A stretch of 20,424 bases of DNA from a virus: the IMG/VR virus record IMGVR_UViG_3300047317_000672, positions 1 through 20,424 of that record. One strand, given 5' to 3'. The position numbers were made by a program, and so were the translations under genes. This document shows positions 1,346 through 20,424 of this stretch, piece by piece. The notes beneath the pieces were generated by a model. It made no database searches. It worked only from the letters and a program-made list of their open reading frames with translations, and was not told the origin of the DNA. Every line of letters begins with the position of its first letter. The first letter of the stretch is position 1.

Positions 1346-1452
1346 TGGATGACCGCCCGCGCCGGCCGCTCCTCGGCTGCGCCCTCGGCCTAGCGACCGG
1401 GCTCGCCATCTGGCTCGCCTTCCTCGCCTGGGTCTTGTACGTCCAGCGATGA
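1342..1452 (+). CDS. 36-residue single-pass membrane peptide
   Basis: ATG 1342 overlaps the previous stop by ATGA, and its own stop overlaps the methyltransferase ATG by ATGA. The product starts MMDDRPRRP and continues as one hydrophobic segment (about residues 10-33, rich in Leu, Ala, Gly, Trp), ending VQR. With positive charges at the N-terminal edge it would probably insert with its N terminus inside. The perfect four-base overlaps at both ends are the main reason to accept so short a gene. Role unknown; it is far from the lysis genes, so a holin-type role is unlikely. Confidence 0.55.
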   Translation: MMDDRPRRPLLGCALGLATGLAIWLAFLAWVLYVQR

Positions 1453-2495
1453 CCGCGCCGGCGGCGACCGTCATCCACGGCGATTGCCTCGAGGTGATGG
1501 CGGCGATGGAAGCCGAGTCGGTCGACGCCATCGTGACCGACCCGCCCTACGGGCTGTCCTTCATGGGTCAGCATTGGGACCGCGGGGTCCCCAACGTGGA
1601 CTTCTGGCGGGCGATGTTCCGGGTCGCCCGGCCAGGCGCCTACCTCCTGTCCTTCGGCGGCACCCGGACCATCCACCGCATCACCGCCAACATCGAGGAC
1701 GCCGGGTGGGTCATCCGCGACCTCCTGGTCTGGGCGTATGCGTCGGGCTACCCGAAGTCGCGCGCCTCGCTCAAGCCGGCCTGGGAGCCCATCGTGATGG
1801 CGCGCAAGCCGGGCGGGCCGCCGTCCGGGCTGAACATCGATGATTGCCGCATCCCCTTCGCATCCGACGAGGACGCCGCCGGCGCAGCTGCCGGTCTATG
1901 GGGTGACGGCGAGGGGTCCTGGTACGCGAAGCCGCGCGAGGGCTATGTCCCGGTCGTACCAGCCAAGCCGGGCCGCTGGCCGGCGAACGTCCTGCTCACC
2001 GACCCCATCTTCGATGGCGGCTTCCTGGGCGTCGTAGGCGGCGGCGAGAGCGTGAGCACGGTGCGCACGTCGGAGGACCGCGACGAGCCCGGCGTAACGT
2101 GGAGCCTCGGCCGGTCGGGCGTGACCCCACGAGGGGTCGCCGATGCCGGCGGCTACTCGAGATTCTTCGTCATCCCGAAGGCAGATGCATCCGACCGCGA
2201 GCCCGTGCTGGGAAGCCTATCCGGGCTCGACCACGTCGACCGGGTCGCGGGGGTCGTTGGGACCGCCCGCCGGAACTACCACCCGACCGTCAAGCCGACC
2301 GAGCTGATGCGGCACCTGGTCCGCCTGGTCACGCCGGCCGATGGGGTCGTGCTGGACCCCTTCCTGGGCTCGGGTACCACCGTCCTGGCGGCCGCCGAGG
2401 AAGGCTTCGGGTCGGTCGGCATCGAGCGCGAGGCGGGCTATGTCGCCATCGCCGAGGCGCGCCTCAACGGTGTCCAGCTCGGGCTCGGTCTGTGA
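1449..2495 (+). CDS. DNA methyltransferase, beta class, probably N6-adenine (348 aa)
   Basis: The protein transfers a methyl group from S-adenosylmethionine to DNA. The catalytic motif DPPY (residues 31-34) precedes the AdoMet-binding motif DPFLGSGTT (303-311), which is the beta-class order. HPTVKP at 278-283 is the usual element just before motif I, and the region between (about 100-260) should hold target recognition. DPPY rather than SPPY favours N6-adenine over N4-cytosine. Length is typical of phage orphan enzymes. ATG 1449 overlaps the membrane-peptide stop, and the TGA overlaps the next GTG. No restriction endonuclease accompanies it, so it probably protects phage DNA or regulates packaging or replication. 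The target cannot be read from sequence. The gene itself contains no GATC, like the rest of the window. Confidence 0.92.
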   Translation: MTAPAATVIHGDCLEVMAAMEAESVDAIVTDPPYGLSFMGQHWDRGVPNVDFWRAMFRVARPGAYLLSFGGTRTIHRITANIEDAGWVIRDLLVWAYASGYPKSRASLKPAWEPIVMARKPGGPPSGLNIDDCRIPFASDEDAAGAAAGLWGDGEGSWYAKPREGYVPVVPAKPGRWPANVLLTDPIFDGGFLGVVGGGESVSTVRTSEDRDEPGVTWSLGRSGVTPRGVADAGGYSRFFVIPKADASDREPVLGSLSGLDHVDRVAGVVGTARRNYHPTVKPTELMRHLVRLVTPADGVVLDPFLGSGTTVLAAAEEGFGSVGIEREAGYVAIAEARLNGVQLGLGL

Positions 2496-2858: not shown

Positions 2859-2995
2859 TTGGTCACACGACCAGCTTCGCCGGCTGCCGCCATTGCGGGC
2901 TCGGCATCCGCTACTCGAGCCGGCTCGGTGCGTGGGTCCACCGCAAGACCCGGCTGCTCGGCTGCGCCAACGGCTACACGCGGGCGGCACCGTGA
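2855..2995 (+). CDS. tiny zinc-motif protein (46 aa)
   Basis: GTG 2855 overlaps the preceding TGA by GTGA (an alternative GTG is at 2846). The product contains CRHCG, then HRKT and a late Cys (LLGCANG), giving CX2C...H...C, a possible single zinc site. It is basic (several Arg/Lys). Its stop overlaps the GTG of the HNH-terminase ORF. The gene is short, but both end overlaps and the conserved-looking Cys pattern support it. It could be an accessory packaging factor; nothing in the sequence proves this. Confidence 0.5.
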   Translation: MIGHTTSFAGCRHCGLGIRYSSRLGAWVHRKTRLLGCANGYTRAAP

Positions 2996-4965
2996 CCAGC
3001 TGGAAGGGGAAGCGTGGGTCCACCCGACGCTGGCGTAGCCTCCGGGCCCAATGGGCTACCCGCCTCCCGGTGCCGTGCTCGAGGTGCGGTCGGGACGTGC
3101 TACCCGAGCACGCCTGGCACCTCGACCATACCGAGCCCGCATCCCGAGGCGGGTCGGACTACGACGCCAGGCCAGCTCATGCTTGGTGCAACCTCCAAGC
3201 GGGCGCCCGTGCCGTAGGCGAAGCACCGAGTGGCGCCAGCGTGCAGGGTGATAGGCGAAGCGGGCGTGTCGGGCATCCACGGCGGGCACGCGCGGTCGTA
3301 GGGGGTGGGGTGGGTCCGGTCGACATCGAGGCGCGCGAGGGTGGGGTCGGTTTTTCTGACGGCGACGTTCTGTGGACAGGCCAAGGCCGGGCCGTATCGC
3401 CCTCCCCGGCCGAACTCCCCGGACCTCGGGCTGCTCTCGCCGCACCCGCGCAGGACCCCGCGGAGGACGAGGTCATCACGCCGGGTCCCGACGACCGCTC
3501 CTGGGATGCAGCACCCTGGCTGGCCGATTTGCGCCTCGTGCCGGGCGACGCCTGGTGGCCGCGCCTCATGTCGGCACCGCACCCGAGCGCGGTCGGGTCC
3601 TACGGCGCCGAGGTCGCCGCGTTCGCCGAGGGCCGGACCGGCTTGCCGCTGCGCTGGTGGCAACGGCTGGTCGCCGCGCGCGTGCTCGAGCACGACGCCG
3701 ACGGGTCGCTGGTCTGGCTGGTCTGGCTGCTATCGACCGCCCGCCAGGTCGGGAAGAGCTGGCTGCTACGCGAGCTGTTCCTCTGGCGCATCCACCAAGC
3801 CGAGCGCTTCGGCGAGCCGCAATTGGTCCTGCACATGGGGAAGGACCTTCCGGTCTGCCGCGAGATTCAGCGGCCGGCTCGAGCCTGGGCCCGCAGCCAG
3901 GGTGGCTACACCGTCCGCGACTCGAACGGCATGGAGGAGATTGAGACGCCCGACGGCTCGCGCTGGCTCATCCGCGGGCGCGGCTCGGTGTACGGCTACT
4001 CGTCCAGCCTGGGCGCCGTCGATGAGGCTTGGAAGGTCGACACCGAGATTGTCGAGGACGGGCTCGAGCCCACGATGGCCGAGCGCGCCTCCTCGCAGCT
4101 CGCGCTCGTGTCGACCGCGCACCGGGCCGCGACCGCGCTCATGCCGGACCGCCGGGCGGCCGCGCTCGGGCAGCTGATGACCCCGTCCGATGCTCTCCTG
4201 GTCGAGTGGTCGGCGGCCGCCTCCTCGGCGCTCGATGACCAGCGCGCCTGGCGCCAGGCTTCGCCCTCCTGGTCGAGCCGGCGCGAGCGCCTGGTCCGGG
4301 CGAAGCACCTCCGGGCGATGGCCGGCGCCTCCGAGGACCCCGACGAGCCGGACCCCATCGAAGCCTTCCGAACGCAATGGCTCAACATCTGGCCGGCGCG
4401 CCGGGCGGTCGCCGCCGACGAGCGCATCGAGCCGCTCGTGGATGAGGCGGCCTGGCGCGACCTCGCCGACCTGACCCTGGCGCCGGCCGGCCAGCTGTCG
4501 CTGGCGCTCGAGGACTACTTCGGGCGCGGTGCCGGCGCGGCCGCCGCGGTCGAGCTGCTCGACGGGCGGGTCTTCGTATGGGGACGCCGATTCGAGCGGC
4601 GGGTCGAGGCGAGCGAGTGGCTGGCGCTGCTCGCAGCTGCGCATCCGGGCAGCTCGCTCGTCCTGGGCGCCTCGATGTCGCCCGACGACGTCGCCGGCAT
4701 GGAGGTCGCCCTCGAGCGCGCCGGCCCGTCGACCACCCGCGTCGCCTTGCCTCGGCTGCGCGACCTGGTCGCCGAGCGGCGCCTGGTCCACGACGGCGGC
4801 GCCGACCTGACCGGGCAGCTCGCCGGGCTGCGAGTGGTGCGCGGCGTCAACGGGCTCACCGTCTGGCCGCATAGCCCGCGGGCCGACCTGGCGCGCGCGG
4901 CCGCCTGGGCGGTCGAGGCGGCGACCCGCACGCCGGCGACCGCCGACGAGCCGGCCGTGTTCTGA
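2992..4965 (+). CDS. HNH endonuclease-terminase large subunit joined in one ORF (657 aa)
   Basis: GTG 2992 overlaps the upstream stop (GTGA). Residues 25-70 form an HNH nuclease: CSRC (29-32), HLDH (43-46) and H63...C66-N67, the ββα-metal pattern with structural zinc. Residues 71-175 are a low-complexity, Gly/Arg/Pro-rich linker with weaker wobble bias. Residues about 180-655 are a large terminase: the ATPase has STARQVGKS (248-256, Walker A) and LGAVDEAW (340-347, Walker B with D344/E345), and a C-terminal RNase H-like nuclease region opens around LALEDYFGRG. Terminase pumps DNA into proheads; HNH partners such as HK97 gp74 assist end cutting in cos phages. Usually these are separate genes. 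No in-frame stop separates them, though GTG 3310 behind a G-rich stretch might also start terminase alone (551 aa). Confidence 0.85.
   Translation: MTSWKGKRGSTRRWRSLRAQWATRLPVPCSRCGRDVLPEHAWHLDHTEPASRGGSDYDARPAHAWCNLQAGARAVGEAPSGASVQGDRRSGRVGHPRRARAVVGGGVGPVDIEAREGGVGFSDGDVLWTGQGRAVSPSPAELPGPRAALAAPAQDPAEDEVITPGPDDRSWDAAPWLADLRLVPGDAWWPRLMSAPHPSAVGSYGAEVAAFAEGRTGLPLRWWQRLVAARVLEHDADGSLVWLVWLLSTARQVGKSWLLRELFLWRIHQAERFGEPQLVLHMGKDLPVCREIQRPARAWARSQGGYTVRDSNGMEEIETPDGSRWLIRGRGSVYGYSSSLGAVDEAWKVDTEIVEDGLEPTMAERASSQLALVSTAHRAATALMPDRRAAALGQLMTPSDALLVEWSAAASSALDDQRAWRQASPSWSSRRERLVRAKHLRAMAGASEDPDEPDPIEAFRTQWLNIWPARRAVAADERIEPLVDEAAWRDLADLTLAPAGQLSLALEDYFGRGAGAAAAVELLDGRVFVWGRRFERRVEASEWLALLAAAHPGSSLVLGASMSPDDVAGMEVALERAGPSTTRVALPRLRDLVAERRLVHDGGADLTGQLAGLRVVRGVNGLTVWPHSPRADLARAAAWAVEAATRTPATADEPAVF
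3301..3346 (+). other. G-run cluster (possible G-quadruplex) in the HNH-terminase linker
   Basis: Runs GGGGG (3301-3305), GGGG (3307-3310), GGG (3312-3314), then GGG (3339-3341) and GGGG (3343-3346) lie on the coding strand. The first three have single-base loops; the fourth run is about 24 bases away. A three-tier quadruplex with one long loop is possible in DNA or mRNA. It falls in the linker between the two domains and just before a possible internal start. Confidence 0.3.
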
Positions 4966-5817: not shown

Positions 5818-6020
5818 CCCCCACCGCCACCGCCGGCACCCACGAATGGGACCGGCTCGCCGCTGAGGCGACCATCATCGCCGGCACAATCGCCGAGACC
5901 CTCGCCGACGGGGTCCTGCCCGAAGGGCTCTGGATGAACGAGGACCGCATGGCCCGAGTCGTGGAGCACCTCCGCAACGCCATCGAGGCAATGGGCGAGA
6001 TGCCCGAGGCGACCCGATGA
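5814..6020 (+). CDS. hypothetical small helical protein (68 aa)
   Basis: ATG 5814 overlaps the previous stop (ATGA) and is preceded by a clear AAGGAG. Two amphipathic helices are visible: HEWDRLAAEATIIAGTIAETLADG and RMARVVEHLRNAIEAMGEM. This is an acidic helical hairpin without Cys or membrane segment. It might pair with the DNA-binding protein encoded next, whose ATG overlaps its stop, but that is speculation from coupling alone. Confidence 0.65.
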   Translation: MTPTATAGTHEWDRLAAEATIIAGTIAETLADGVLPEGLWMNEDRMARVVEHLRNAIEAMGEMPEATR

Positions 6021-6199
6021 CCCTCGCGCAAGCGGCCGCCGCGCTCGGCCTGGACGCCTCCACCCTGCGCCGGCAGATTGCGCGCGGCTCGCTGCGCGCC
6101 CGGAAGGTCGGCCCGGTCTGGACCGTCACCCGGCCCGAGGTCGAGCGGTACCGCGCGGCCCACCTCGGCCGGCGCGCCAACCGCCAGCCGACGGAGTAG
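6017..6199 (+). CDS. helix-turn-helix DNA-binding protein, excisionase/MerR-like (60 aa)
   Basis: The sequence LAQAAAALGLDASTLRRQIARG is a clear helix-turn-helix, followed by the wing SLRARKVGPVWTVTRPEVERYRA. This is the pattern of excisionase-family/HTH_17 domains, where the wing contains an R-x-G-x-x-W/R-x-(I/V) strand and a helix closing on E-x-x. It comprises one domain and a short basic tail. ATG 6017 overlaps the upstream stop. Such proteins act as Xis recombination factors or transcription regulators. It lies more than 13 kb from the integrase and in the opposite orientation, so local regulation (for example of the 5218 promoter with its dyad) is as likely as excision. Confidence 0.7.
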   Translation: MTLAQAAAALGLDASTLRRQIARGSLRARKVGPVWTVTRPEVERYRAAHLGRRANRQPTE

Positions 6200-11956: not shown

Positions 11957-13084
11957 GTGGCGCTGACCCTCCTGGTCAAGTTCCTGGCCGACGCATCGCA
12001 GCTTAAGGACGAGGCTGCGAAGGCGAGCGGCGGCGTCGACGTGCTCGGGCATTCCATCGACATCGGGGTCATCGCGAAGGGCGCCGCGGTCGCCGGCGCG
12101 GTCGGCATCGCGGTCAGCGCCATCGCCGACATGACGATGGCTGCATCGGCCGACCGCGACGAGCAGAACGCGCTCGCGACCGCGATGGAGAACTCGGGCG
12201 CCAACATCGCCGGGTGGGAGGAGAAGGTCAATTCGGCTATCGATGCCGGCCAGGCGCTCGCCTTCTCGGACAGCGAGATACGCGACTCGATGGCGACCCT
12301 CACCGCGGCGACCGGCGACGTCGACAAGGCGACCGCCGAGCTCGCGGTCAGCCAGGACATCGCCCGCGCCGCCGGCGTCGACCTGGCGACCGCCTCGGAT
12401 GCCGTAGCCAAGGCGAACGCTGGTCAGGACGGCGCGCTGCGCAAGCTCCTCCCTGGTCTCGAGAAGGGCGCGACCGCGCAGGACACCATCGCGGCGGCAT
12501 CCAAGCGGGCGGCCGGCGCCGCCGACACCTACGCCAAGAGCACGAAGGGAATGGGCGAGCAGGGGTCCATCGCCTTCAGCGAATTGACCGAGACGATTGG
12601 GTCCGTGTTCCTCCCCATCTTGGACGCCCTCATCCCGGCCCTCATCCCGATTCTGAGCGCCTTCGGTCAGCTCGTGAAGGCCATCCTGCCGCTGCTCATC
12701 CCGCTCATCAAGGCGCTCGGGGTCGCGCTCGGCATCGTCGCCAAGGTGCTGGTAGCCGTGGTGAACGCCATCGTGAAGGTCGTGACGTGGATGAGCACCC
12801 TGATACAGAAGGTGGGCTCGCTCCTGTCCAAGCTCGGCCCGCTGCAAGCGGCCGGGAACTTCCTGGGCGGCATCATCGGCAAGAGCGCGCCGGCGTCCTT
12901 CGGCTCGCCGGCGGCGGCGCCCTTCGGCCTGGGCCCGTCGACCAGCTCGGCGACCGCCGGCTGGTCGGCCGTGACCATCAATGCCTTCGGCGACCCGCAG
13001 CTCATCGAGGCGGCAGTCGTCCGGGCGATGCGCCGCTATGACCGGACCAACGGCGCCACGCAGCTCATCCCCCGATGGTCGTAG
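11957..13084 (+). CDS. tape measure protein (375 aa)
   Basis: GTG 11957 has GGAGG at 11945-11949 (7-nt spacing); the nearer ATG at 11952 is out of frame. The product has an Ala/Gly-rich helical N-terminus with hydrophobic stretch (VIAKGAAVAGAVGIAVSAIA, about 38-57), a long helical middle (ATAELAVSQDIARAAGVDLA), then four or so strongly hydrophobic helices around residues 215-275 (ALIPALIPILSAF, LPLLIPLIKALGVALGIVAK) and a terminal (GDPQLIEAAVVRAMRRYD) motif common at the ends of actinophage-type tape measures. It sets tail length and passes into the host membrane. At 375 residues it is short; about 0.15 nm per residue predicts a tail near 55-60 nm. Confidence 0.9.
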   Translation: MALTLLVKFLADASQLKDEAAKASGGVDVLGHSIDIGVIAKGAAVAGAVGIAVSAIADMTMAASADRDEQNALATAMENSGANIAGWEEKVNSAIDAGQALAFSDSEIRDSMATLTAATGDVDKATAELAVSQDIARAAGVDLATASDAVAKANAGQDGALRKLLPGLEKGATAQDTIAAASKRAAGAADTYAKSTKGMGEQGSIAFSELTETIGSVFLPILDALIPALIPILSAFGQLVKAILPLLIPLIKALGVALGIVAKVLVAVVNAIVKVVTWMSTLIQKVGSLLSKLGPLQAAGNFLGGIIGKSAPASFGSPAAAPFGLGPSTSSATAGWSAVTINAFGDPQLIEAAVVRAMRRYDRTNGATQLIPRWS

Positions 13085-14817
13085 CCGAGCGGCCAGGCGC
13101 CTTCGGTATCCGGCTGCGCGTCCCGACCCTCCGCGAGGCGGGCATCGTCACGGTCGAGGTGCAGGTCGGCGAGCCGGGCATGGCGCTCGACGGCTGCCAG
13201 CTGCTCGAGCTGACCTGGACGTGGGGTGCCTCGGGCGACAACGGGGTCGTGACCACGGCCGATGCCGGCGGCGGCACCATCCGGCTCGTTGACCCCGGCC
13301 GCCTGTTCGACCCGACCAATGCCGAGTCCACCTTCAGCGGCATCGGCACGGTCATCCGCATCCTGCTCAACGGCACCATCGCGTTCCGCGGGCGCATCGA
13401 TGCCGTGCAGCACGACCTCGAGATAGCGACCCTCGGCCTGGTCGATGCGGTCGCCGCGCTGGCGGCCGTGCAATTCGTGGAGACCAACGTGCCGGCCGAG
13501 ACCACGAGCCAGCGCATCACCCGCATCCTCGACCTCGCCGCCTGGCCGGCCGACCGCCGCGACATCGGGCCCGCCGGCCGCGCCCTCCAAGCCGGCACCG
13601 TGTCGGCGGATGCGTGGACCGAGGTGCTCGAGGCGACCCGGAACGAGCTGGGCGCGCTCTGGCTCACGCCCGACGGCAAGGTCGCCTTCCGCGACCGCAC
13701 GACGGCATGGACCGGCGGCCCGCCGGTGATGACCTTCGGCTGCCCGCCCTCGGATGCCTTCATCGGCACGATGCAGATGCGCGGCGACCAGAGCGACCTT
13801 GTGAACATCCTGTCGGCCGCCCGCCGGACCGGCACGCAAGCGACCGTTCAGGACACGACCAGCCTCGCCCTCTACGGCCGGCACACACACGTCCAGAACG
13901 ACCTCGAGCTGGCGACCGATGACGAGCGCGACCTGTGGTCGAACTTCTACCTGGTCCGCCAGGCCAACCCGGTCGCCGGCATCGAGCGCTTCACGATGCG
14001 CCCGGACACCGAGGCTATCTCGGCTCTGCTCACCCTGCCGTTGGGCGCCATCGTGCGGGTCTACGACGAGCACCACGGGCCCATCATCGACCGCACTAAT
14101 CGCTGGCTCGGGCTCAAGTGGTCGGTCGCACCCGACCACGTCGAGGTCGAGGCGGTCGTGGGCGAGGACGCGAGCATCCGCCAGGTCGAGCGCAGCCTCA
14201 CCATCGACCTCCCGTCCGAGTGGGAGGCGGCCCAAGCGTATCGGCCGCTCACGACCGTCCCGCCCAATCCGCCCGACCTGACGCAGAACGGGTCGTTCGA
14301 GCTGGACATGGCCGGATGGGAACTCAATCCGGCCGGGTCGAACGTGGCGGTCGTGGTCGACGCGGCAGCTGCGCAGTATCCCGGCACGAAGGTCGTGAAG
14401 GTGACGGGCTCGGGCATTGCCGCGCCGGGTCTGCGCTCGCTGCTCGTCTCGCCGCCACAGATGCCGGTCATCCCCGGCATGACCTACCGCCTCCGCGCCT
14501 TCGGCAAGCGCATCACGGGCACGGCCGCCGGTCTCCAAGTGCTCGGTCACGGCCGCAACGACGCGTCGAGCGGCATCGCCCTCAATGCCATCGTGCTCAC
14601 CTGGAACGCGAACACCTCGGGCGCCGGCGCCTACATGGAGGGCTGGTACACCGTGCCGGCCGACGGCACCGTGACGCAGCTCGCCATCAACATCGCCCTC
14701 ACCGGGTCGCCCGCGAGCACCGAGGTTTGGGAGGTGGACGACATCACCCTGGTCGCCGGCAATACGGTCTACGCCGGGCTCGGGCTCGCCTACGCGCTCA
14801 TCCCGCGGACCGGCTGA
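13075..14817 (+). CDS. tail-tip/hub protein with a C-terminal carbohydrate-binding-like module (580 aa)
   Basis: ATG 13075 overlaps the tape-measure stop by 10 bp. Residues 1-390 are mixed beta (FGIRLRVPTLREAGIVTVEVQVG, GGTIRLVDPGRLFDPTN, FRGRIDAVQHDL, LGLKWSVAPDHVEVEAVVGE) as in baseplate/hub proteins that follow the tape measure in siphophages. A linker (TTVPPNPPD) leads to residues 405-580, which begin NGSFELDMAGWELN and have VIPGMTYRLRAFGKR and a last strand EVWEVDDITLVAG, a jelly-roll typical of CBM4/9-like carbohydrate-binding domains. The next gene ends in a similar module. A role in tail tip assembly and surface-sugar binding is likely; the exact subunit (Dit, Tal) cannot be fixed. 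Confidence 0.75.
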   Translation: MVVAERPGAFGIRLRVPTLREAGIVTVEVQVGEPGMALDGCQLLELTWTWGASGDNGVVTTADAGGGTIRLVDPGRLFDPTNAESTFSGIGTVIRILLNGTIAFRGRIDAVQHDLEIATLGLVDAVAALAAVQFVETNVPAETTSQRITRILDLAAWPADRRDIGPAGRALQAGTVSADAWTEVLEATRNELGALWLTPDGKVAFRDRTTAWTGGPPVMTFGCPPSDAFIGTMQMRGDQSDLVNILSAARRTGTQATVQDTTSLALYGRHTHVQNDLELATDDERDLWSNFYLVRQANPVAGIERFTMRPDTEAISALLTLPLGAIVRVYDEHHGPIIDRTNRWLGLKWSVAPDHVEVEAVVGEDASIRQVERSLTIDLPSEWEAAQAYRPLTTVPPNPPDLTQNGSFELDMAGWELNPAGSNVAVVVDAAAAQYPGTKVVKVTGSGIAAPGLRSLLVSPPQMPVIPGMTYRLRAFGKRITGTAAGLQVLGHGRNDASSGIALNAIVLTWNANTSGAGAYMEGWYTVPADGTVTQLAINIALTGSPASTEVWEVDDITLVAGNTVYAGLGLAYALIPRTG

Positions 14818-19771: not shown

Positions 19772-20043
19772 GCGGCGAAGTCCAGCGTGGGGTCCCACAT
19801 GAAGAGCACGAGCGCCAGCGATAGCAGCCGGCCGAGGATGACGAGCACCTGGGCGACCGGGACGGTCGGGCGCCCGGCGGCCAACGCTACGACCTGGTCG
19901 ACCGCCTGGGCGACCGCGGTGCGGCGCGCCTCATCCTCGACCTCGGCGATGGTCGTGCCGTAGTGGGTCCAGCCTGGTAGCAGCATCGAGAGGGCGACGA
20001 GCAGCCGGTCGCCCGTCACGGTCGCGGGCTGTCGAGCATTCAT
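19768..20043 (-). CDS. small membrane protein between integrase and HicA-like gene (91 aa)
   Basis: The ATG at 20043 overlaps the integrase stop (ATGA) and its TGA overlaps the next ATG, so three genes are translationally coupled. The N-terminal two thirds are helical and soluble (ALSMLLPGWTHYGTTIAEVEDEARRTAVAQAVDQVVALAAG); the C-terminus has one hydrophobic helix, residues about 62-83 (VAQVLVILGRLLSLALVLF), ending MWDPTLDFAA, so it is a likely tail-anchored or single-pass protein. Not recognised. Given its partner, a role in superinfection exclusion, lysogeny or toxin control are all guesses. Confidence 0.65.
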   Translation of the reverse strand: MNARQPATVTGDRLLVALSMLLPGWTHYGTTIAEVEDEARRTAVAQAVDQVVALAAGRPTVPVAQVLVILGRLLSLALVLFMWDPTLDFAA

Positions 20044-20424
20044 CCTTGCGCCTCCATCGCGTAGGGGTCGAGGGCGCCCGCCACGTCACCGTCGGTATGG
20101 AGATAGCGAGCCGTCGTCGCCAGGGTCGCGTGACCCAAGATGCGCTGGACGGTGCGCACGTCGACGTTCGCCTTGAGCATCCTGGTCGCCGCCTCGTGCC
20201 GGAAGTCGTGCCAGCGGTAGGGCCCGATGCCGACCTCGGTCTGCACCTTCATGAAGTGCTCGTAGAGGGAGTTGGCACGGAGCGGCGAGCCCGGCTTGCG
20301 CCGGCTGGCCGGGTCGACGGGCACCGTGAAGATGAAGCCGGTCCGGTCGGCCGACCCGTTCTCGAGCTGCCAGCGCCGGCGCTTCTCGAGCGCCTTCACC
20401 GCGAACGAGGCGAGCGGGATGATG
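20040..20424 (-). CDS. tyrosine integrase, C-terminal catalytic part (N-terminus beyond window edge)
   Basis: The frame is open on the reverse strand from 20423 to TGA at 20040-20042 and has no credible start, so the gene continues beyond the window (a GTG at 20399 is internal). Catalytic residues visible: the YRWHDFRHEAATRML box (H-x-x-R), ILGHA with the second His, and TARYLH with the nucleophilic Tyr; the first Arg is upstream of the window. It catalyses attP-attB integration and marks the phage as temperate (or a prophage). Being the first of three coupled leftward genes, it would direct expression of the membrane and HicA-like proteins. Confidence 0.92.
   Translation of the reverse strand, partial: IIPLASFAVKALEKRRRWQLENGSADRTGFIFTVPVDPASRRKPGSPLRANSLYEHFMKVQTEVGIGPYRWHDFRHEAATRMLKANVDVRTVQRILGHATLATTARYLHTDGDVAGALDPYAMEAQG

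Follow-up and report, generated by a model that had tools for sequence, protein, structure and literature searches.

The DNA analysed here (the window) is an entire IMG/VR virus record of 20,424 bases. It contains one long open reading frame in which an HNH domain is followed, without a stop, by a complete large terminase (TerL) fold, confirming the 657-residue HNH–terminase frame described in an earlier, sequence-only reading. The GTG start overlaps the stop codon of the upstream ORF (GTGA at 2992–2995), and the frame offers more start codons farther 5′, for example TTG 2893. The parts of the ORF are:

2992..4965, plus strand: HNH-TerL fusion ORF, 657 aa, open frame with a GTG start
3010..3231, plus strand: HNH domain, residues ~7–80, with CxxC, LDH and HxxCN (PHROG 589, Pfam HNH, fold)
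3232..3441, plus strand: disordered linker, residues 81–150, stop-free across the family
3310..3312, plus strand: candidate internal GTG start, upstream of the putative cohesive-end site (cos)
3469..4956, plus strand: large terminase, ATPase and RNase-H-like nuclease, residues ~160–655 (PHROG 9, Foldseek)

The N-terminal part matches PHROG 589 (E=7.5e-8) and Pfam HNH (E=5e-4, just under the Pfam cut-off), and the TerL part matches PHROG 9 (E=1e-19). An AlphaFold2 model, computed with 70 aligned relatives as input, has a mean pLDDT of 86. It consists of two confident domains, residues ~7–80 (HNH fold, pLDDT ~90) and residues ~160–655, joined by a disordered stretch with pLDDT below 50 at residues 81–150. 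The best solved-structure match of the TerL part was HK97 TerL (6z6d, Foldseek E=5.7e-19), and a PDB sequence search with the family profile returned chance matches only. An N6/N4 DNA methyltransferase (1449–2495, plus strand; Pfam E=9e-32) is encoded a few hundred bases before the fusion gene, and a small helix-turn-helix protein (HTH_17; 6017–6199, plus strand), possibly an excisionase or a small-terminase-like DNA binder, lies between TerL and the portal gene.

A sequencing error could have hidden a stop or frameshift in the linker. A second IMG/VR record from another metagenome (L002) shares 5137 of 5146 bases with the window from position 3230 onward, and its protein is unchanged over residues 81–657. 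This agreement excludes such an error downstream of 3230. A peptide in frame 2 of the linker (from 3305) was rejected as an alternative coding sequence: it had no family match, and it is the in-frame reading that is conserved. Searches of viral contigs yielded 9 loci and then 80 loci (from 337 candidates), the two sets partly overlapping. In every relative with enough sequence upstream of the TerL core, an HNH-like domain stands in frame with TerL without a stop, so the domain order recurs in independent phages, which the sequence-only reading had named as support for a fusion; in L010, the most distant relative, no HNH-like domain was seen before the contig edge. Among the relatives examined, we found no close one with HNH and TerL as two separate genes. 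An HNH-based search, which used a narrower HNH alignment (the broad one was too divergent), returned two classes: members running into TerL or to the contig edge, and stand-alone HNH genes stopping 22–43 residues after the CN motif.

Two functional genes might nonetheless share a frame by chance, through a lost stop, and be made separately from an internal start such as GTG 3310. For the window's own linker, chance alone gives a stop-free frame about one time in four (P about 0.25), so the single ORF is by itself weak evidence against this. We therefore counted stops in 16 spanning members of the window's clade, with linkers of 44–153 codons. Their 1344 linker codons contain no in-frame stop, while the remaining frames hold 37 and 43; shuffles of the 16 linkers predict 28, and the product of P(0) is about 6e-14 when linkers are treated as independent. 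Two close relatives, L028 and G004, have linkers of equal length that differ at 35 sites across 170 codons, with no frame-breaking indel. In this pair alone, dN/dS is about 0.6 in the linker and about 0.2 in the TerL core; the looser constraint is what separate genes would predict, but together with the absence of stops it indicates a linker that is most likely translated yet weakly constrained. Sister clades with short linkers are fused too. Internal starts between HNH and the putative cos are present in most genomes, so separate production of TerL is possible, and GTG 3310 is a possible TerL start. Overall we consider two genes in a shared frame unlikely. The comparison instead supports a natural HNH-TerL fusion, common to many independent phages with the same domain order; as encoded, HNH domain and predicted packaging motor are one protein in a large family of uncultured phages.

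The relatives also revealed a pattern in where their contigs end. Of the contigs in the window's clade, 38 start within the linker, many of them at one shared spot. In ten contigs of 15–26 kb, HNH lies at the right end and TerL at the left end, in the same direction: a search of 28 parent records for HNH found it opposite the TerL end in eight contigs of 21–26 kb (G001–G005 and G008–G010), and G030 and G032 were added later. In all eight, the HNH frame is open to the right edge, 26–126 codons past the CN motif, and the TerL frame is open to the left edge. G004 carries a 14-nt terminal repeat, and joining its ends over this repeat places HNH and TerL in one frame, open across the junction; the other contigs have gaps or no overlap between their ends. 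Two further pairs, L031/L040 (100% identical) and L038/L088 (99.8% identical), are by their sequences the same phages caught joined and ended: the contigs of L031 and L038 continue across the linker, whereas those of L040 and L088 begin inside it, 34 and 35 nt after a T-run.

This T-run belongs to a cos-like element (T-run, ~48 nt, C-run) found near the ends of the linear contigs. The spacing from T-run to C-run is 45–49 nt in nine ORFs and 40–47 nt in genomes of the sister clades. Our pattern scan missed the in-ORF element at its usual spacing in 7 of the 16 linkers (L031, where a different C-run was matched at 31 nt, and six without a match), partly owing to variants such as ACCCC that were absent from the pattern. 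Many left contig ends fall 13–16 nt before the C-run, and right ends scatter from T-run +29 to +51. In the window the corresponding features are:

3351..3355, plus strand: T-run TTTTTCTG, left landmark of the putative cos element
3380..3387, unstranded: putative virion DNA end (cos cut) inside the ORF, T-run +29–36, C-run −13–16
3400..3407, plus strand: C-run CCCTCCCC, right landmark of the cos element, 49 nt after the T-run start

The position of the cut in the window (codon ~130–132) was transferred from the contig ends of its relatives.

Could the fusion be an ordinary one, with its cos elsewhere and the ends in the linker produced by low coverage, strain variation or trimming during assembly? 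All ends counted are metagenome contig ends, the right ends scatter, and those of G001 lie off the expected base, leaving about 75 nt unaccounted for. Such artefacts, however, would not be expected to place HNH and TerL at opposite ends of the same 15–26 kb contigs, or to fall, in dozens of contigs, on the same fixed DNA landmark. They would also have to follow that landmark into the sister clades, where it sits upstream of HNH and where contigs tend to end upstream of HNH as well. We judge an assembly origin very unlikely. The shared spot, the placement of HNH and TerL at opposite ends and the joined and ended pairs together indicate that a cos very probably lies inside the HNH-TerL gene, at about 3380–3387 in the window. 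Recurrence of the ends at one element in many genomes matches the unique, sequence-defined ends expected of a cos-type phage, and we infer that these are true cos ends. The gene would then, very probably, be complete only in circular, concatemeric or prophage DNA. In the left ends of L017, L036, L041 and L053 there is no start codon before the TerL core, so TerL there cannot start on the linear DNA alone; GTG 3310, being upstream of the putative cos, would need joined DNA too. The sequence-only reading is thus partly supported: a natural fusion, one of its two options, and the domain order hold up, but it overlooked both the probable cos that would split the ORF in linear virions and the sister group in which the same fusion has the cos-like element upstream.

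The window itself looks like a joined form. Compared gene by gene, it is a circular permutation of the linear relative G001: it starts at what is ~17.36 kb in G001, passes HNH (20.9–21.1 kb), crosses the junction into TerL, and continues through portal, protease, capsid and tail genes, with the integrase (~14.5 kb in G001) at its far end. It could derive from circular, concatemeric or prophage DNA. The C-terminal part of a tyrosine integrase, cut by the window edge (20040–20423, minus strand), suggests a temperate phage; the source is probably a small (~20–26 kb), cos-type, temperate phage. No relative was confirmed in 84,980 bacterial and archaeal genomes, and hence no host was found. One protein of the tail region (13075–14817, plus strand) has a weak match to a carbohydrate-binding module (CBM_4_9, E=1.7e-5).

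We then considered what each half of the protein might do. The TerL active-site positions are:

3739..3759, plus strand: Walker A ARQVGKS, residues 250–256; R251, Q252, G254 and K255 invariant in 70 sequences
4021..4026, plus strand: Walker B acidic pair D344-E345, invariant in 70 sequences
4510..4515, plus strand: nuclease motif I, E507-D508; E/D in nearly all members
4666..4674, plus strand: nuclease motif II position, G559-A560-S561, without Asp; equivalent of HK97 D388 lost
4885..4887, plus strand: nuclease motif III, D632; D in 60 of 70, H in 9

The motifs of an HK97-type packaging ATPase, RQxGK and DE, are therefore intact, in a part whose fold matches 6z6d. The RNase-H-like nuclease uses three acids in HK97 TerL (D302, D388 and D471; PMC9410871). 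Here its fold is present and the motif II acid is absent: at the end of the motif II strand, placed from the predicted strand 555–559 of the AlphaFold2 model, none of 69 family members has an acidic residue. We read the TerL part as likely to work like a TerL motor and make no claim of an active TerL nuclease. In the HNH domain, C26, C29, D42, H43, H60, C63 and N64 (aligned-segment numbering) are invariant in 15 aligned members; the zinc ligands and His-metal core (CxxC, DH, HxxC, N), and with them the metal-binding and general-base residues, are thus conserved, whereas conservation does not extend to the middle Asn of H-N-H. That TerL has lost its second nuclease Asp is a hint that cutting falls to the HNH domain. 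The same Asp is also absent (VALQxNG) from TerL of Joann, Maja and Morrissey, phages with a separate HNH, and it is retained in BlueFeather, likewise with a separate HNH, so a coupling between gain of HNH and loss of the TerL Asp is only suggestive. The TerL proteins of Morrissey, Joann and Maja entered our set as L109, L110 and L111; in each, the separate HNH gene lies near the right genome end.

Phage terminase loci often carry HNH genes, some of them homing genes (PMC10448857); the one here might likewise be a homing endonuclease or selfish element inserted before TerL, with no part in packaging. A mobile insertion sits poorly with an HNH domain that is kept in frame throughout a diverse clade and is found on the side of TerL that faces cos, the arrangement of HK97-like systems, in which cos cleavage is promoted by GP74 (PMC9410871). 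We regard homing as extremely unlikely. In location, the domain resembles a GP74-like packaging HNH, being in frame with TerL and beside the putative cos.

HK97, whose TerL is the best structural match, likewise combines an HNH protein, GP74, with TerL at cos. It differs in keeping HNH and TerL as two proteins, where the fusion is one, and in having D388, the equivalent of which the fusion protein lacks. HK97 is not known to have a cos inside a coding frame. In four isolated cos phages of actinobacteria (BlueFeather, Maja, Joann and Morrissey), unlike in the fusion, HNH and TerL are annotated as separate genes: HNH is the final gene on the right or close to it, and TerL sits at the left end or nearby. 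Among isolates, the closest HNH is that of BlueFeather (46% over 65 aa). In the BlueFeather genome, whose ends are deposited, a similar T-run precedes the right end by about 38 nt; the HNH gene ends in a stop, two more genes precede the genome end, and TerL has its own start.

In the sister IMG/VR clades (L005–L009, L051, L061, L085 and L089), an HNH-like domain is fused to the same TerL family through a short linker. There the cos-like element lies to the left of the entire fused gene, and many members have a degenerate HNH (DHxPPL...SCxxC). A phylogeny of the TerL part unites the long-linker members (42 of 43; 99% SH-aLRT), leaving L039 just outside. The simplest history would be that HNH and TerL, flanking a cos, were joined in frame once in the long-linker clade. 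Seven of the sister-clade members (L007, L008, L009, L051, L061, L085 and L089) carry a second, different HNH-like domain in the N-terminal ~90 aa fused to TerL. Its motif is DHxPPLxxHxH...CCxLVPSCxxC, with the usual final H/N often replaced, and it may be a different or dead nuclease.

Taken together, we consider it highly probable that the window encodes a natural HNH-TerL fusion of a small, probably temperate cos phage, with cos within the linker-coding DNA. In the linear virion genome, coding would begin with TerL at the left end and finish with HNH at the right. After injection, the ends would anneal and be ligated, restoring the single ORF. The fused protein, which we infer to be made at full length, would then recognise and cut cos, within its own gene, on concatemers and package the DNA, the flexible linker giving HNH access to cos during DNA translocation by the TerL ring; a single-chain cutting-and-packaging motor, as the sequence-only reading proposed, is plausible. 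Somewhat less firmly, but still as the likely case, the terminase gene holds its own cos in the functional sense: the virion would lack an intact terminase gene, the enzyme would be made only after circularisation (or from a concatemer or prophage), and each cut would destroy a copy of the gene. Terminase synthesis would thus depend on joined DNA.

Cooperation between HNH proteins and terminases at cos is known from HK97, yet poorly understood. With HNH and TerL covalently linked, their stoichiometry and geometry are set, and purification as a single chain could become possible. A terminase ORF with an internal cos would make expression of the packaging motor depend on genome topology and, if it works as proposed, give packaging a built-in order and feedback control. 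In a limited, open-access literature search we found neither a fused HNH-TerL nor a cos inside a terminase gene, and no description of terminase expression tied to genome topology. For annotators, linear records in the window's clade cut the HNH-TerL gene in two; start codons for TerL are then few or absent, and the HNH half can be misnamed. Two UniProt entries from uncultured Caudovirales phages, A0A6J5RK67 (602 aa) and A0A6J5QUV0 (586 aa), match the query structurally across nearly its whole length; annotated merely as 'HNHc domain containing protein', they are probably HNH-TerL fusions already deposited.
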